A DNA stretch of 39,179 bases from Gammaproteobacteria bacterium (lineage in GTDB: Bacteria; Pseudomonadota; Gammaproteobacteria; Thiomicrospirales; Thiomicrospiraceae), in the NCBI GenBank assembly GCA_014763665.1, contig JACXUY010000012.1:1-39179 (forward strand), written 5' to 3'. This document shows, piece by piece, positions 1,898 through 14,231 of the stretch. The position numbers were made by a program, and so were the translations under genes. The first letter of the stretch is position 1, and each line of letters starts with the position of its first letter. The notes beneath the pieces were generated by a model. It did not search any database. It was not told where the DNA came from and saw only the letters and a program-made list of their open reading frames with translations.

Positions 1898-1926
1898 CTT
1901 GAAAAGTCATTTTGTTAACCCCATAG
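1898..1926 (+). promoter_or_regulatory. sigma-32 (RpoH) heat-shock promoter of grpE-dnaK-dnaJ
   Basis: CTTGAA (1898-1903), a 15-base spacer, then CCCCAT (1919-1924, followed by AG). This is a near-perfect match to the RpoH consensus CTTGAAA/CCCCATnT at the expected spacing, about 40 bases ahead of the grpE start. The match is seen in the sequence; RpoH control is inferred from the known regulation of this operon. Confidence 0.85.
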
Positions 1927-1967
1927 AGACTATGTTTTAATGAATGTGACCATGTTAGGGAGGTTTT

Positions 1968-2537
1968 ATGAGTACGACAAACGAGCAAAATGAAGCCGTA
2001 GAAAGCCATGAAGATGTTGCGACCGAATCGAATGTGACCGAATCGAATGAACAAACATCCGTTGAACAAGATGTTCAAACACTTTTAGTCGAAGCTCGGG
2101 CGCAGGCAGCGCAACATTTTGATAGTCTGTTGCGTTTGCAGGCAGATATGGAAAATTTGCGTCGTCGTACTGAACGTGAAATTGATAATGCGAAAAAGTT
2201 TGCTTTAGAGCGTTTCATTAACGACCTTATCCCCGTCTTAGACAGCATGGAAATGGGTTTGCAGGCGTCTAATCAAGCCGTTAACGAGCAGGATACAATC
2301 CGTCAAGGTTTAGAAATGACGTTAAAAATGTTCCAAGACGTGATGGCACGTTTCCATGTGGAAGCGGTTGATCCGACGGGGCACCCTTTTAACCCGCAAG
2401 AGCACGAAGCGATGACCATGCAGCCTAGCAAAGAGCATGAACCCAACACAGTCATGTTTACGGTGCAAAAAGGTTACAAATTGCATGGGCGTGTGGTGCG
2501 TCCCGCTCGCGTGGTGGTTTCCTCAGCCGCTGCGTAA
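1968..2537 (+). CDS. grpE: GrpE, nucleotide exchange factor of the DnaK chaperone
   Basis: GrpE is a cytoplasmic homodimer that releases ADP from DnaK and so resets the chaperone cycle. The 189-residue product has the family layout: an acidic, disordered N-terminus rich in E and N (about 1-40), a long coiled-coil helix containing LRLQADMENLRRRTEREI, and a C-terminal beta-domain with HEAMT and the GYKLHGRVVRPARVVV ending. Length is normal (E. coli about 197). The ATG is preceded by GGGAGG (1958-1963) at good spacing. It is the first gene of the heat-shock operon, directly downstream of the sigma-32 promoter, with dnaK 96 bases further on. Confidence 0.98.
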   Translation: MSTTNEQNEAVESHEDVATESNVTESNEQTSVEQDVQTLLVEARAQAAQHFDSLLRLQADMENLRRRTEREIDNAKKFALERFINDLIPVLDSMEMGLQASNQAVNEQDTIRQGLEMTLKMFQDVMARFHVEAVDPTGHPFNPQEHEAMTMQPSKEHEPNTVMFTVQKGYKLHGRVVRPARVVVSSAAA

Positions 2538-5867: not shown

Positions 5868-6320
5868 ATGAATTTGCGTTACCTCATTCTGGTTGCATTA
5901 TTATTGCTCAGTGCTTGTGTGCCGCCACCAGCAGAAAAATCAGATGCGCCCAAGGCTCCCGTTGTTGTTCCAAGTGAGAGGAAGCCTGTCTTTCCGGCTC
6001 CTGTTGTGAAACCTGAAGCAGTCAAGCCTGTCCCCTCGCAAAGTGTTATTCTTCCTTCGGGATGGACTGTGATGGATCCGAAGGGTATTTTGGAAAAAGT
6101 GGAGTATAAGCCAGAACAAGGCGGTGTCTTGTTTACGCTCAAGGCACATAGTAATTTAGAGTTGTTTTCGGCTGAAGATGCTGAAAAGCGTTCTTACTAT
6201 AAAGGACGGCTTAATGGCGCACATCTCGTTGCTTTACCACCACAGCAGCGCAATGTGCTGATTATTTTTACCAATCGTCAAAATGCGCGTTCATCGGTAT
6301 TATTAAGGTACGCCAAATAA
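5868..6320 (+). CDS. Small outer- or inner-membrane lipoprotein of unknown function
   Basis: The 150-residue product begins with a lipoprotein signal peptide: a short basic start, a hydrophobic run and the lipobox LSAC with the acylated Cys at 17. A Pro/Lys-rich spacer (about 18-62) follows and then a compact domain with SGWTVMDPKGILEKV and QNARSSVLLRYAK. The residue after the Cys is Val, not Asp, so Lol sorting to the outer membrane is the default expectation. I do not recognise the folded domain. AAGGA (5856-5860) supports the start. The gene sits between dnaJ and dapB, which are usually adjacent in Pseudomonas-type genomes, and is probably co-transcribed with dapB 51 bases downstream. Confidence 0.8.
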   Translation: MNLRYLILVALLLLSACVPPPAEKSDAPKAPVVVPSERKPVFPAPVVKPEAVKPVPSQSVILPSGWTVMDPKGILEKVEYKPEQGGVLFTLKAHSNLELFSAEDAEKRSYYKGRLNGAHLVALPPQQRNVLIIFTNRQNARSSVLLRYAK

Positions 6321-6362: not shown

Positions 6363-7169
<807 letters not shown>

Positions 7170-7175
7170 TTCAAC

Positions 7176-7205
7176 TGGACTAAAGGGCTTTTTTTGCGCT
7201 ATAAT
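7176..7205 (+). promoter_or_regulatory. Possible promoter of the carA leader
   Basis: A perfect TATAAT (7200-7205) has TGGACT (7176-7181) 18 bases upstream as a weak -35 element. A transcript from here would begin near 7212 and meet the terminator hairpin at 7269-7303 before carA. It also contains a possible mini-ORF (GTG at 7233, stop at 7263-7265, ten residues, GGAG ten bases ahead). If real, this is a leader. If not, the hairpin is simply the end of dapB. Confidence 0.4.
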
Positions 7206-7268
7206 GAGCAAAATTAGCGGAGTACTAAAGACGTGTTGACAACAAGGGGTCACATCACAGAATAAGTT

Positions 7269-7303
7269 AAAAACGGAGTTGGCTCTGCCTTCTCCGTTTT
7301 TTT
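7269..7303 (+). terminator. Rho-independent terminator or attenuator between dapB and carA
   Basis: AAAAACGGAG (7269-7278) pairs with CTCCGTTTTT (7292-7301). Inside, GGC/GCC form a second stem around TCT, separated by a TT/TT internal loop. Seven T's follow the stem base. It is a strong intrinsic terminator that either ends the lipoprotein-dapB transcript or attenuates carAB transcription. The 59 bases from here to carA show no good promoter of their own. Confidence 0.85.
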
Positions 7304-7362
7304 GTATCGCAATTTTGGGCATTATTAGGACATTCGGGTTAAAGAGATAGGGAAGTGGGTAG

Positions 7363-8493
7363 ATGAAAGCGTTACTGGCATTGGCAGATGGCAGTTTGTT
7401 CTGGGGCGAGTCAATCGGCGCACCAGGAGAAACGGTAGGAGAGGTCGTGTTTAATACCTCAATGACAGGGTATCAAGAAATCTTGACGGATCCTTCGTAT
7501 TTTCGTCAGTTAGTGACGCTAACCTATCCGCATATTGGTAATGTGGGCGTCAATGATGAAGACAGCGAAAGTCAAGGCGTCATGGCAAGCGGTTTGATTA
7601 TTCGCGATCTGCCCTTAACACATTCCAGTTTTCGTGCCCAACGCTCCTTAGCTGACTATTTAGTGCAGCAAAATGTGGTGGCGATTGCTGACATAGATAC
7701 GCGTGAGTTAACGCGCCTGTTGCGTGAAAAAGGCGCTCAAAACGGTGTTATTGTCGCAGGCGATGATATAGATGCCGAAGCTGCCATTGCTAAAGCGCAA
7801 GCCTTTGCAGGTCTCAATGGAATGGATTTGGCTAGCGAAGTCACAACACAGCAAAGCTATAGCTTCCGCGAAGGTGAGTGGCGTTTAGGTGAAGGTTTTG
7901 CCATTAAAAACGATGCGGACTTGCCTTATCATGTTGTTGCTTATGATTATGGTGTCAAAACCAACATTTTGCGCATGTTAACTGAGCGTGGTTGCCGATT
8001 GACTATTGTGCCTGCTGATACCTCAGCGGCTGACGTGAAGGCCTTGAATCCTGATGGTATTTTCTTATCGAATGGTCCGGGCGATCCTGCTGCTTGTGGT
8101 TATGCGATTGAGTCGATTGCAGAATTGATTCAAGGTGATACGCCAATTTATGGTATTTGTTTGGGGCATCAATTGTTGGCATTAGCGGCGGGTGCCAAAA
8201 CGCTGAAAATGAAGTTTGGTCATCATGGCGGTAATCACCCTGTGCAAGATATGCGTTCAGGAAAAGTATTAATTACCGCGCAAAACCATGGTTTTGCTGT
8301 CGATGAATCTACACTTCCTGTTGGTGTTGAGGCGACGCATCGTTCGTTATTTGATCAATCAAATCAAGGTATCCGCTTTGCTGATAAGCCTTTTTTCAGC
8401 TTTCAGGGACACCCCGAAGCCAGTCCAGGTCCTCATGATTTAGCCTACCTGTTTGATGAATTTATTGCCAACATGGCTGCGCGTCGCGCCTAA
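7363..8493 (+). CDS. carA: Carbamoyl-phosphate synthase small (glutaminase) subunit
   Basis: CarA hydrolyses glutamine and channels ammonia to CarB, which makes carbamoyl phosphate for pyrimidines and arginine. The 376-residue product has the CPSase_sm N-terminal domain (about 1-130) and a class I glutamine amidotransferase domain. The catalytic triad is visible as Cys266 in IYGICLGHQ, His350 and Glu352 in [11 protein letters not shown]. Length matches the E. coli protein (382). The ATG is preceded by GGAAGTGG. It is followed 26 bases later by carB and preceded by the leader hairpin described separately. Confidence 0.98.
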
Positions 8494-8519: not shown

Positions 8520-11500
8520 ATGCCGAAAAGAACAGATATTAAAAGCGTATTAATTATTGGTGCCGGCCCGATTGTCATTGGTCAGGCATGTGAATTCGAC
8601 TACTCAGGTGTTCAAGCCTGCAAAGCCTTGCGTGAAGAAGGTTATCGCGTGTTGCTAGTTAACTCTAACCCGGCTACCATCATGACTGATCCGGATATGG
8701 CTGATGCCACTTACATTGAAGCCATTACGTGGCAAACGGTAGCGAATATCATCGAAAAAGAGCGCCCTGATGCGTTATTACCGACTATGGGTGGTCAGAC
8801 GGCCTTGAATTGTGCGTTAGATTTATGGCGTCATGGTGTTTTAGAAAAGTTCAATGTTGAATTGATTGGTGCTAAGCCAGAGGCTATTGACAAGGGTGAG
8901 GATCGTGAAAAGTTCCGCCAAGCCATGCTCAAAATTGGTATTGATGTACCTGACTCTGGTATTGCACATAGTTTAGATGAAGCATGGGCCATTCAGCAAC
9001 GAGTTGGTTTTCCAACCGTCATTCGTCCTTCGTTTACCTTAGGTGGTACGGGTGGTGGCATCGCTTACAATAAAGACGAATTTGAACAAATTTGTAAGCA
9101 TGGTTTGTACATGTCACCAACCAACGAGTTGTTGATTGAAGAATCCATTTTGGGCTGGAAAGAATACGAAATGGAAGTGGTGCGTGACGCCAAAGACAAT
9201 TGTATTATTGTTTGTTCGATTGAGAACTTTGACCCCATGGGCGTGCATACGGGTGACTCAATCACGGTTGCACCAGCGCAAACGCTGACTGATAAAGAAT
9301 ATCAAATCATGCGTAATGCTTCGATTGCGATTTTGCGTGAAATTGGCGTTGAAACCGGAGGTTCCAATGTGCAGTTTGCCATAAATCCTAAAGATGGTCG
9401 TATGATTGTCATTGAGATGAATCCACGTGTCTCACGTTCATCAGCTTTAGCATCCAAAGCAACAGGATTCCCCATTGCTAAAGTGGCGGCGAAGTTGGCG
9501 ATTGGTTACACCTTAGACGAACTTACCAACGACATTACGGGTGGGTTAACGCCTGCTTCTTTTGAGCCGTCGATTGACTATGTTGTGACCAAAATCCCTC
9601 GCTTTACCTTTGAGAAGTTCCCACAAGCAGAGCCTCGTTTATCGACACAGATGAAATCGGTTGGTGAAGTAATGGCCATGGGTCGTACCTTCCAAGAGTC
9701 ATTGCAAAAAGCGATTCGTGGTTTAGAAACAGGTAAAACAGGTCTGGATCCTATGCTGGACTTGAGCAGCATGGATGACAAATCAGTGCGTGATATTTTG
9801 CGTCATGAGTTGCGCTCTCCAGGTCCTGACCGCTTATGGTACCTTGCTGATGCTTTCCGTTTTGGTTGGAGCTTAGAGGAAGTCTTTGAGGTTTGCTCTA
9901 TAGATCCTTGGTTCTTGGCGCAGGTTGAAGATATTGTGCGTGAAGAGCAAAAGGTCGTTTCAGGTGGCTTAGATGCGCTTGATAAAGATCGTATGCTGAA
10001 GTTGAAGCGTAAGGGCTTTTCGGATATGCGCTTGGCTAAACTATTGAATACTGACAGCGCTTTTTTACGTAAATTTCGTCATACCCTTGGTGTTAAGCCG
10101 GTTTACAAACGCGTGGATACCTGTGCGGCAGAGTTTGCAACCAATACCGCTTATTTGTATTCGACCTATGAGCAGGCTTGTGAAGCGGCACCAACCAATA
10201 AGCATAAAATCATGATTTTGGGTGGCGGACCTAACCGCATTGGTCAGGGTATTGAGTTTGATTACTGTTGTGTGCATGCGGCTATGGCCTTACGTGAAGA
10301 TGGTTTTGAGACCATTATGGTTAACTGTAATCCCGAAACGGTTTCGACAGATTATGACACTTCGGATCGCTTATATTTTGAACCCCTAACCTTGGAAGAT
10401 GTTCTCGAAATTGTGGCGGTTGAGAAGCCAGAAGGCGTTATTGTTCAGTATGGTGGTCAAACACCACTGAAATTGTCGCGTGATTTAGAAGCAGCGGGCG
10501 TACCTATCATTGGTACATCGCCCGACTCAATCGACTTAGCAGAAGACCGTGAGCGATTCCAGAAGTTACTGCAAGAATTGGGCTTGCGCCAACCAGCTAA
10601 CCGTACCGCTCGCACACCAGAACAGGCGCTCACCCTAGCCGATGAAATTGGCTATCCGTTGGTCGTTCGTCCGTCTTATGTGTTAGGGGGGCGTGCTATG
10701 GAAATTGTCTATAGTGAGAAAGACTTATCACGTTACATGCGTGAAGCGGTTCAGGTTTCCAATGATTCCCCCGTCTTGCTAGATCGCTTCCTAGATGATG
10801 CTACAGAGCTCGATGTCGACGCCATTTGTGATGGTGAACAGGTCGTGATTGGTGGCTTGATGGAGCACATTGAGCAGGCTGGTATTCACTCGGGTGACTC
10901 AGCTTGTTCATTGCCACCTTACACAGTGCCAGCGCATATTCAAGATGAAATTCGTCGCCAAACAGAAGCCATGGCGTTTGCTTTGAAAGTACGTGGATTA
11001 ATGAATGTTCAATTTGCCGTTAAAGGTGAAGATATTTATGTGCTTGAAGTGAATCCACGCGCTTCTCGTACAGCCCCTTTTGTGTCGAAAGCGATTGGTG
11101 CACCTTTAGCGAAGGTTGCTGCACGTGTGATGGCTGGAACCAGTTTAGCGGCACAAAACTTTACTAAAGAAATCTTACCTGAGCATGTCTCGGTGAAAGA
11201 AGTGGTTTTCCCGTTCATTAAATTCGGTGGTGTTGATCCGATTCTTGGCCCAGAAATGAAGTCAACGGGTGAAGTGATGGGAATTGGGCAAAACTTTGCT
11301 CAAGCTTTTGCCAAAGGATTGTTAGCAGCAGGTACACTATTGCCAACGGGTGGTAAGGCGTTTATTTCAGTCCGTCAAGCTGATCGTGCGGCAGCAGTTG
11401 ATGTTGCCAAGATGTTAATTGCTAGAGGATTTGAAATTGTTGCCACGCGAGGTACTTCTAAAGCACTCACTGAAGCGGGGATTTCCCATTCAGTCGTTAA

Positions 11501-11735
11501 TAAAGTGACTGAAGGGCGTCCTAACATCGTTGATATGATCAAGAATGATGAAATTGCCCTGATTGTGAATACCTCGGATGGGGCTATGGGCGTTGCTGAT
11601 TCTTTCTCTATTCGTCGAGAAGCTTTGATGCATCGTGTTGCCTACACGACAACCGTAGCAGGTGCTGAGGCCATGGCGATGGCAATGGATTATGTCAATG
11701 ATCAGCCGGTTTATCGTATCCAAGATTTGACTTAA
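8520..11735 (+). CDS. carB: Carbamoyl-phosphate synthase large subunit
   Basis: CarB uses two ATP, bicarbonate and ammonia from CarA to form carbamoyl phosphate. The 1071-residue product is full length, with two homologous ATP-grasp halves. The first starts with [21 protein letters not shown] and contains [12 protein letters not shown] and [18 protein letters not shown]. The second starts with [19 protein letters not shown] and contains [15 protein letters not shown] and [18 protein letters not shown]-terminal MGS-like allosteric domain (about 935-1071, including [19 protein letters not shown]) binds UMP or ornithine in E. coli. AAGGAA precedes the ATG. It forms an operon with carA. Confidence 0.99.
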
Positions 11736-11813: not shown

Positions 11814-12293
11814 ATGAGTACACGTCCTCCGTTGACTGCTGCCGGTGCAGAGCACCTTCGCAATGAATTGACCAAGTTAAAAAATGTGGAGCGTCCACGA
11901 ATTGCCGAAGCCATTGCCGAGGCACGTGCGCATGGAGATTTGAAAGAAAATGCCGAATATCATGCCGCACGTGAACAACAAGGTTTATTAGAAGCGCGTA
12001 TTCGTCATATTGAATCCGTGCTTTCTCATGCACAGATCATTGATATTACTTTAATTCAGTCAAACGGGAAGATCGTATTTGGTGCTACAGTCGAGTTGCT
12101 GAATATTGAAAATGAAGATACGGTGATTTATCAAATTGTCGGTGATGAAGAGGCCGATTTAAATCATAATAAAATTTCCATCAATTCCCCGATTGCGCGT
12201 GCGTTAATTGGTAAGGAGGAGGGTGAGGAAATTACCGTTAAAGCTCCGGGTGGTGATATCGAGTATGAAATTTTAACGGTTAGCTATGTCTGA
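11814..12293 (+). CDS. greA: Transcript cleavage factor GreA
   Basis: GreA enters the RNA polymerase secondary channel and stimulates cleavage of backtracked RNA. The 159-residue product shows the N-terminal coiled coil with the catalytic acidic tip in [20 protein letters not shown] (about 42-61) and the C-terminal FKBP-like domain ending with [16 protein letters not shown] and [13 protein letters not shown]. Length is canonical (158 in E. coli). AAGGAG lies about ten bases before the ATG. It follows carB as in Pseudomonas, and its last eight bases overlap the next gene, implying coupled translation. Confidence 0.98.
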
Positions 12294-13419
12294 TGCCTTA
12301 GCGGCTTTACAAAAAGCTTTGCTCGATTGCCGAGGCGACCATTTGGTCGCTTCGTTTTTTTCAGCTTCTCACCGGTCTGATTGGTTTGCTCAACCTTGGT
12401 ACGCTATTGCCTTAGGTAAGGCTTCTTTGGCGATGATGGAAGGTGCTTTGGTGGTTGGTGGTTCAAACTTAGTTGCTGGTTTGGTGGTGAGTAAGCAAGA
12501 TAGCGGAAGCAGCTTAAGTGATGAGCGACTGATCTGTTTAACGGCAGCTCATCCCGTTCCAGATGAAAGTTCGTTGCAAGCTGGACAGGCATTATTGACT
12601 TTTGTGCAACAACTACCCAGTCAGGCTAGGGTGCTTTTTTTAGTGTCGGGTGGTGCCTCTGCTCTGGTTGAAGTCTTACCTGCTGACTGGAGTCTATCGC
12701 GTTGGCAACAGCAAACGCAACAATGGTTAGCTTCTGGTCGGGATATTCAACACATTAATCAAGCGCGTAAAAAACTATCTTTAATTAAGGGTGGTAAATT
12801 ATTAGCTCATTTTCCTAAACAAGTGGAGATATTGCAGCTTATTATTGCAGACGTACCCAATCAGGACTTGGCGGCGGTAGGTTCAGGCTTGTTGTTGGCT
12901 GATGTTTTCGACGAACGGGTTTCAACTTATTGTTTGGCAGATAATCGTTCTTTCTTAACTAGCTTGGCACTTTATTTACCTCATGCAGAGATGATACCAG
13001 CCTATGTCAGTTCAGAGGTTAATGCCTTGGCAGTTGAGATTGCCGCTAAAGCTGTTTTAGGGCAGTGTACTCTGTGGGGAGGTGAGCCAGTGGTTCAATT
13101 ACCTGAGCATGCGCCAATGGGTGGAAGAATGCAGCATTTGGCTTTAGCCGTAGCTTGGCAATTACGTCATGCGACTTTTCCTTGGTCTTTAATTGCCTTG
13201 GCTAGTGATGGCGACGATGGTAATAGTCGTGTAGCAGGAGCCAGGGTTAATGAGAAGACCATTGGCATTGCAGAGTGTTATGGTTGGCAAATCGAGTCCA
13301 CCTTAGCAGAAGCTAATGCGCACGCTCTGTTGGCTGATGTCGGCGCTTTGATTGAGACAGGTTATACAGGCACTAATGTGAATGATGTGATGATCTTGTG
13401 TTGTGGAGAAGGACGATAA
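12286..13419 (+). CDS. Divergent glycerate 2-kinase / MOFRL-family protein
   Basis: The 377-residue product follows the GckA/type II glycerate kinase plan (DUF4147 then MOFRL). Matching stretches are [55 protein letters not shown] and, near the end, [14 protein letters not shown]. Typical enzymes phosphorylate D-glycerate to 2-phosphoglycerate. Key motifs deviate: the usual GGRNQE reads GGRMQH, and the T-D-G-x-D-G motif reads SDGDDG. The protein is also 40-50 residues shorter than usual. Substrate and activity are therefore uncertain. The start overlaps the end of greA by eight bases, and its stop overlaps the ATG of the DUF455 gene. Confidence 0.75.
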
Positions 13420-14231
13420 TGAATTCGGTTTATCAACGAGCTTACGAAGCACTCATGCAGGTTGAAGTTGAGCAAAAAGCGCAAGCTGTTTTTAACCTAT
13501 TGGATGATTGGCGCGAGCAGCGTTTGAGTATGAAGCCAACCGATGTCGTTTCTATTGAACAGCCCGGACACCCAGATAAACCGGTTTTGGTTTCACCTAA
13601 CCTATTGAAAGCACGCGGTTTAGGGTCACGCGAAGGTAGAGCGAGTTTGTTGCACTCTATCGCGCATATTGAATTTAATGCGGTCAATTTGGCCTTGGAT
13701 GCGGTTTATCGATTTCAACAGATGCCGGTCGAATTTATTGATGATTGGTTAAGAGTTGCATCCGAAGAGGCTTATCATTTTCAGTTATTGCGAGAACAGC
13801 TTGCCGGTTATGGTTACGATTATGGTGATTTTCCCGCTCACAATGGTTTGTGGGAAACCACTCATGAAACCGATTTTGACGTTTTGGCGCGCATGGCATT
13901 GGTACCCAGAACCTTAGAGGCAAGAGGCTTAGATGTAACGCCCGACATGATGAAAAAGTTACGAGCTGTCGGTGAAACACGCGCAGTCGCGGTGCTTCAT
14001 ATTCTATTGCGAGATGAAGTAGGTCATGTCGCTGTTGGTAGTAAATGGTTTAATTGGTTATGTGTTCAACGTGGATTAGACAAGTTTAATACCTTTAAAA
14101 TGCTGATTGATACTCACTTAAAAGGAGGTCTTAAGCCACCATTTAACATCGATGCTCGGCGTGAAGCTGGCTTTTCGGAGGTTGAACTGGCGTGGCTGAC
14201 GAGCTTATCGTCAACAAGCTCGGCCAGTTAA
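13419..14231 (+). CDS. DUF455 family ferritin-like di-iron protein
   Basis: The 270-residue product has the DUF455 signatures SIEQPGHPDKP, RASLLHSIAHIEFNAVNLALDA and LLRDEVGHVAVGSKWF. A complete set of di-iron ligands is visible: E85, E117-x-x-H120, E167 and E200-x-x-H203. A ferritin-like four-helix fold is therefore likely. The family is distantly related to MiaE-like tRNA hydroxylases, but its reaction is not known. The frame extends 21 bases upstream, but the ATG at 13419 is preferred because GGAGAAGGA lies just before it and it overlaps the upstream stop as TAATG. It converges on the minus-strand gene at 14228 with a 4-base overlap. Confidence 0.85.
   Translation: MNSVYQRAYEALMQVEVEQKAQAVFNLLDDWREQRLSMKPTDVVSIEQPGHPDKPVLVSPNLLKARGLGSREGRASLLHSIAHIEFNAVNLALDAVYRFQQMPVEFIDDWLRVASEEAYHFQLLREQLAGYGYDYGDFPAHNGLWETTHETDFDVLARMALVPRTLEARGLDVTPDMMKKLRAVGETRAVAVLHILLRDEVGHVAVGSKWFNWLCVQRGLDKFNTFKMLIDTHLKGGLKPPFNIDARREAGFSEVELAWLTSLSSTSSAS

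Follow-up and report, generated by a model that had tools for sequence, protein, structure and literature searches.

CarAB stands at the branch point of arginine and pyrimidine synthesis, and pyrimidine attenuation has reportedly been proposed for the carA leader of Pseudomonas aeruginosa. The leader described here is also alike to that of the pyrBI operon of Escherichia coli, where a promoter, a short leader frame and an intrinsic terminator precede a pyrimidine operon; in that system a ribosome that follows closely blocks the hairpin, and attenuators of the pyrBI type carry a U-rich pausing tract before it. The pyrBI terminator is reported to lie inside a 135-bp leader peptide gene (PMC4824070). 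According to the same report, a stop codon 5 nt before the tR2 terminator of E. coli cut termination from about 90% to under 10%, uncoupling of translation abolished this repression, and a terminator located less than 100 bp into a coding region can function as long as pausing does not couple the two machines (PMC4824070).

In Pseudomonas syringae, the carA leader terminator gives a mapped 3′ end and removal of its stem-loop raises expression; uracil lowers that of the full-length carA leader fusion, arginine raised expression, and arginine and uracil together had little effect, no difference being seen by qRT-PCR when both were added (PMC4997734). The same report suggests a trans action of the RNA P32, and mentions a leader peptide reported for P. 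aeruginosa and no start codon for one in P. syringae. A carA prediction for P. syringae is attributed there to a survey of premature terminators, whose main text matched carA only in an author's name (PMC2965389). In E. coli, carAB is described as having a second, ArgR-controlled promoter, as well as UTP-dependent reiterative transcription at a GUUU start (PMC6245113). In turn, the betaproteobacterial carA motif, a riboswitch candidate mostly from Polynucleobacter, is presented as an extended imperfect hairpin by the ribosome-binding site (PMC8632094). Outside enteric bacteria and pseudomonads, little about CarAB control is described in the searchable literature. Among the matches listed, no description of a Thiomicrospiraceae carA leader was found in the open-licence literature; Thiomicrospira together with carAB retrieved community or ecology studies, judging by titles and the openings of abstracts, and Thiomicrorhabdus together with transcription attenuation retrieved nothing in the open-licence literature.

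Here we analyze the carAB leader of a member of this family of sulfur bacteria, whose genera are numbered g1 to g7, g1 being that of the organism under study. The window, i.e., the whole stretch of 39,179 nucleotides, is a contig of a 2.17 Mb genome, and the relevant features are collected in Table 1. From the comparison of this leader with those of its relatives, we consider it fairly probable that it works as a transcription attenuator relieved by a ribosome at the stop codon of a mini-ORF, and that it would sense the coupling between ribosome and polymerase.

Table 1. Features of the carAB leader and of its surroundings, in window coordinates.
Feature	Position	Strand	Basis
dapB, gene 5′ of the leader (context only)	6372..7169	+	NCBIfam TIGR00036, 319 bits
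Predicted sigma-70 promoter of carA, TGGACT-18 nt-TATAAT	7176..7205	+	Promoter scan
Predicted transcription start	7212	+	Spacing rule only, ~7 nt after the -10
GCGGAGT, probable Shine-Dalgarno sequence for the mini-ORF	7217..7223	+	Sequence reading
GTG mini-ORF, ten codons plus TAA, read MLTTRGHITE	7233..7265	+	Sequence reading, relatives
Intrinsic terminator, core ACGGAG...CTCCG then T7	7269..7303	+	Fold, relatives
carA, first gene 3′ of the terminator, ATG at 7363	7363..8493	+	NCBIfam TIGR01368, 484 bits
carB	8520..11735	+	NCBIfam NF003671, 1759 bits
greA, next gene, same strand as carAB	11814..12293	+	NCBIfam NF001264, 248 bits

Two further reading frames of the neighborhood were noted. An ORF of 150 codons between dnaJ and dapB (5868-6317) presents no Pfam or NCBIfam match, and ORFs of similar length occur 5′ of dapB in several other genomes of the family. 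The second gene after greA (13398-14228) encodes a DUF455 protein (Pfam PF04305, 311 bits).

The promoter scan of positions 6900-7600 returned two hits where 0.8 were expected, which alone is not significant. The first contains the TATAAT (7200-7205) noted in the preliminary description of this DNA. The second, TTGACA-16-CAGAAT with a perfect TTGACA, lies inside the mini-ORF (7236-7263) and was discarded as an internal promoter, as its TTGACA is not kept in G002, a genome of the same genus. No hit fell between 7304 and 7362, in agreement with the earlier statement that carA has no obvious second promoter. Across the family, a lax rule yielded a -35/-10 pair for 58 of the 59 genomes, and only in L089 was the -10 set by hand; 59-101 nt separate the end of the -10 from the terminator arm in these 59 genomes.

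The strong hairpin-plus-T7 terminator described earlier was confirmed: the hairpin starts at 7269, its T7 tract occupies 7297-7303, and its folding energy is -17.9 kcal/mol (z -5.5), a value not attained by any of 200 shuffles. The terminator rule applied to the 6900-7600 scan found nothing, i.e., it did not report this hairpin, and we think that the mismatches interrupting the stem are responsible. The mini-ORF stop is separated by three bases (7266-7268) from the A-rich foot of the stem and by seven from the ACGGAG core, and the terminator ends 59 nt 5′ of carA. This leader arrangement is judged to be above chance because it is conserved in relatives. Indeed, carA was found in all 62 family genomes, 59 of which have readable upstream DNA (G021 and G078 were left out for contig edges, and G077 for a partial carA match), and every one of these 59 carries a terminator 5′ of carA, its stem ending 44-254 nt from the start of the carA match. 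The hairpin, on whose conservation beside carA the preliminary description had made its proposal depend, is therefore kept throughout the readable family genomes.

The core pattern ACGGAG-N(10-34)-CTCCGTTTTT stands 5′ of carA in 58 of the 62 genomes, including G077, where it precedes the partial match. The four genomes lacking the pattern are G021 and G078, with their contig edges, L101 (GGTTCCG), and L132, where CGGTG/CACCG constitutes a compensated change of the core. L132 lies outside the set of 30 leaders (of 59) that were aligned; in this set the lower stem, ACGGAG/CUCCGU, is invariant and the upper stem varies with compensation. Elsewhere the core pattern occurs at six further sites, in six genomes (G014:C1:533967, G020:C23:32279, G067:C1:1640263, G068:C164:2949, G069:C148:2185 and G070:C51:2337).

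The GTG mini-ORF of ten codons, one of them AGG, was confirmed by direct reading (GTG TTG ACA ACA AGG GGT CAC ATC ACA GAA TAA, the TAA being at 7263-7265). In the 59 family leaders, the start was taken as the ATG or GTG closest to a chosen distance from the terminator arm (-29 for ATG, -32 for GTG, and -41 in g1), a choice that is blind to the stop, but whose target distances were set after candidate frames had been seen. The chosen starts, 54 ATG and five GTG, lie 24-67 nt 5′ of the arm. Relative to the arm, the frame 0 stop ends within the interval from -14 to +10 nt in 53 of 59 leaders, none ending earlier (52 of 58 without L135, whose mini-ORF, at -67, was selected manually in knowledge of its stop), and frames +1 and +2 reach this interval in only 16 and 22 leaders, respectively. 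When the 53 distinct start-to-arm sequences are considered, the corresponding figures are 47 in frame 0 and 13 and 21 in the others. With the start kept, 65% of shuffles have a stop no later than +10, and shuffling the whole leader yields a start and stop so placed in 24%, versus the 53 of 59 observed, a count to be read bearing in mind that the genomes are related and do not represent 59 independent cases. At the level of sequence, this pattern is beyond chance, and the mini-ORF is predicted to be translated.

A stop at or before +10 is found in all the leaders of g1 (4/4), g2 (30/30), g3 (1/1), g4 (1/1) and g7 (3/3), in six of nine from g5 and in eight of 11 from g6; the six remaining frames go beyond +10, as far as +65. 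Of the 59 frames, 45 have their stop no further than the arm, and 49 are 5-12 codons long. The three g7 frames, for instance, have seven codons each and differing peptides, with stops 0-1 nt before ACGGAG, and the 21-codon frame of g4 stops 1 nt before the same motif. The comparison across relatives, proposed in the preliminary description, upheld the hairpin and the positions of the mini-ORF start and stop, but not the peptide.

If the leader is indeed an attenuator of this kind, transcription would start near 7212 and RNA polymerase would complete the terminator about 90 nt later. With no ribosome at the end of the mini-ORF in time, the hairpin would form and transcription would halt 5′ of carA; with a ribosome at or near the stop, the foot of the stem would be covered, the hairpin weakened and carAB transcribed by the predicted read-through. 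The leader would then act as a switch that stays off except when a ribosome is close behind the polymerase. A ribosome at a stop codon covers about 10 nt beyond it. When occlusion to 10 nt past the stop was modelled, the window hairpin fell from -17.4 to -7.2 kcal/mol, in line with the earlier suggestion that a ribosome at the mini-ORF stop would cover it, and the family median from -24.5 to -8.0 kcal/mol; a ribosome modelled at the start codon left the family median unchanged. The effect is uneven, half or more of the hairpin energy being removed in only 35 of 59 leaders and none in G002, where the stop lies 14 nt before the arm.

In such a device the peptide would be irrelevant, and the start, length and stop position of the mini-ORF would matter. 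For this reason, the most likely signal would be ribosome-polymerase spacing, that is, the closeness of the ribosome to the polymerase, plausibly set by UTP as in pyrBI. By comparison with P. syringae, pyrimidine supply would be a likelier signal than an amino acid. More tentatively, the family may possess a peptide-blind, translation-sensing attenuator, in which the features kept would be the start codon, a frame mostly 5-12 codons long and the placing of its stop relative to the foot of the terminator; on this still doubtful proposal, sequence, length and surrounding helices would change between genera.

The motif CGGAGT occurs twice, at 7218-7223 and 7274-7279, and the CTCCG arm had consequently been credited with two possible partners. 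Such pairing of the upstream element with CTCCG is possible in g1 and in much of g2, but it is not kept in g5, where the element reads, for example, AAGGGTGAC or AAAGGTTGG, nor in g7, where it reads GGGGTTGGG; in L132, the changed arm finds no matching change in the upstream element, which is still GGAG. These cases rule out the second CGGAG partner as a conserved pairing. Because the pairing is not conserved, the upstream CGGAG is rather read as a Shine-Dalgarno sequence, and GCGGAGT is likely to be that of the mini-ORF. Its GGAG is spaced 10 nt from the GTG in the window, GCGGAG is invariant in the four genomes of g1, and purine-rich elements lie 5′ of the start codon in the other genera shown (ACGGGGT is another example), the matches to the Shine-Dalgarno consensus being modest (3-4 of 6).

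In the aligned leaders, the start codon is also involved in a helix, AUGAC/GUCAU, which could act as a pause hairpin or as a start-codon mask. The helix alignment comprises 30 of the 59 leaders (27 of 30 from g2, the single one from g3 and two of 11 from g6), and 91% of its cells are paired. This location of the AUG would suit a different mechanism, in which a leader-RNA-binding protein or a metabolite controls the terminator and the short frame is a by-product of the AUGAC...GUCAU hairpin; many other gammaproteobacteria also have a terminator at this position, and no consistent mini-ORF was observed in the 96 loci scanned, which points in the same direction. We nevertheless hold it to be rather unlikely. 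Double changes affect only two pairs of the helix, and, in the 30 aligned leaders, the AUG never changes, in contrast to the neighbouring positions of the helix. Furthermore, no such helix was seen by eye in g4, g7 or G002, where the frame persists, and on this account the helix was kept out of the core mechanism. The excess of frame 0 stops outside g2 would not be explained by it either. At the gathering score, the whole window is devoid of Rfam matches, and none was obtained in the three family loci scanned (L089, L094 and L099).

As for the gammaproteobacterial loci that do not belong to the family, a hairpin plus T-run was called by a permissive automatic rule in 62 of 96, an uncurated figure that includes several plainly spurious calls; the set consists of 80 named and 16 same-class loci, L002 and L003 being family members already counted. 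Terminators 5′ of carA with T6-T7 and cores like GCGGGATGA or GCGAGGT...CTCGC occur in many of these other bacteria (L004, L005, L009, L011, L013, L022, L028, L045, L049, L050, L053, L057 and L058). Enteric and vibrio loci mostly show no terminator 5′ of carA, or only doubtful ones.

The likeness to Pseudomonas is close in layout. The carA leader of this genus is described as having a single promoter before the leader terminator, upstream of carA-carB-greA (PMC4997734), and a single candidate promoter followed by a leader terminator is also what the window sequence presents. The terminator cores differ, that of the Pseudomonas locus L058 being GCGGGGTGACG...CGTCACTCCGC versus ACGGAG...CTCCGT here. 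Moreover, the Rfam family P31 (RF01676) has no match in the window, and matches L058 within the carA leader (positions 1908-1989, minus strand, 109 bits), on the strand opposite to carA. As the leader terminator is nearly palindromic, one might guess that the P31 model is placed on the strand mirroring the carA leader RNA. This Rfam sRNA at the same place, together with the origin of P32 in the carA leader of P. syringae (PMC4997734), would fit the notion that the terminator serves to make a short stable RNA acting in trans, carA control being a side effect. However, outside the terminator core the leader diverges fast between genera, which is unusual for a base-pairing RNA, and we regard this notion as quite improbable for the family.

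A still simpler interpretation, already envisaged in the preliminary description, is that the hairpin is a plain terminator of dapB or of another upstream gene, carA being driven by another promoter. In the window, dapB does precede the leader with the same orientation, and transcription coming from dapB would also encounter the terminator. Nevertheless, tblastn placed the end of dapB within 140 nt of the promoter (-10) in only 16 of 59 genomes, against 59 of 59 for the terminator, so that 43 genomes have the terminator without dapB at this distance; it lies about 300 nt away in L099 and L107, and in the remaining ones it is more distant or was not detected within the 0.55-1.5 kb of upstream DNA searched. 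In the upstream DNA searched, G002 (also from g1) showed no dapB, and its long upstream ORF (396 codons) is divergent from carA; an ORF pointing away cannot be the one served by the terminator. The core of the terminator accompanies carA, the promoter candidate sits between dapB and the terminator, and no promoter-like site lies 3′ of the latter in the window. On this comparative evidence, the leader terminator belongs to carA, and its assignment to dapB or another upstream gene is very improbable.

With regard to the peptide, the frames of the four g1 genomes translate as VLTTRGHITE, VLTTTGHITE, VLIITSKIL and VLTTTGQKMN, the first residue being that of the GTG start, and no common peptide was seen across genera among the 59 mini-ORFs. 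The AGG of the window is replaced by ACG (Thr) in G001 and G003, G002 has no arginine codon, and any arginine codon is present in only 17 of 59 mini-ORFs; the arginine codon of the window is on these grounds unlikely to be a signal. The leader peptide contains no run of cognate arginine codons, and neither the minimum-energy fold of the window leader nor the consensus fold shows a competing antiterminator hairpin. Attenuation by slow decoding of cognate codons for arginine or another amino acid, evoked by that single AGG, by the role of CarAB in supplying arginine synthesis and by the ATG AGG start of five of nine g5 frames, is extremely improbable, and its arginine version was rejected given that the codon is not conserved.

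The attenuator relieved at the mini-ORF stop, as we read it, fits the label "pyrBI-type" used in the preliminary description only loosely. The terminator lies between the promoter and the structural genes, as in pyrBI, but the leader frame does not run over it, given that 45 of 59 frames end at or before the arm and the stop in the window ends 7 nt before the core; a few family frames, such as those of L090, L106 and L132, do overrun the terminator. The U-rich tract before the arm is likewise absent in six leaders examined, the fraction of T in the preceding 30 nt being 0.17 in the window and 0.13-0.23 in the other five. Compared with the P1 promoter of E. coli carAB, a -35/-10 pair is found at a similar place, and enteric loci such as L026 present TAGACA followed by TAAAATGCGCC, near the TAAAATCCGCC of other family genera; unlike the GUUU start of E. 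coli, the likely start region of the window, AAAATTAG, has no run of three T. With the betaproteobacterial motif, the leader shares the condition of a cis element directly 5′ of carA with a promoter 5′ of the element; the description of that motif sets it apart from a terminator ending well before the gene. Altogether, the anatomy on which carAB attenuation had been proposed stood, promoter, mini-ORF and terminator being found together in 59 of 59 leaders, but arginine sensing, the second pairing partner and the U-rich tract did not.

In view of the Pseudomonas carA leader, an attenuator at carA is of a known kind; the mini-ORF seen here, whose peptide varies freely and whose stop is positioned with respect to the terminator, represents a variant. 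The conserved geometry between stop codon and terminator constitutes a natural test of how close a ribosome needs to be in order to silence an intrinsic terminator, and could also guide the search for further leader frames with a non-conserved peptide. If the peptide-blind proposal is true, such an attenuator would measure ribosome-polymerase spacing as such, and in these sulfur bacteria the supply of the precursor shared by pyrimidine and arginine synthesis would be tied to that spacing.
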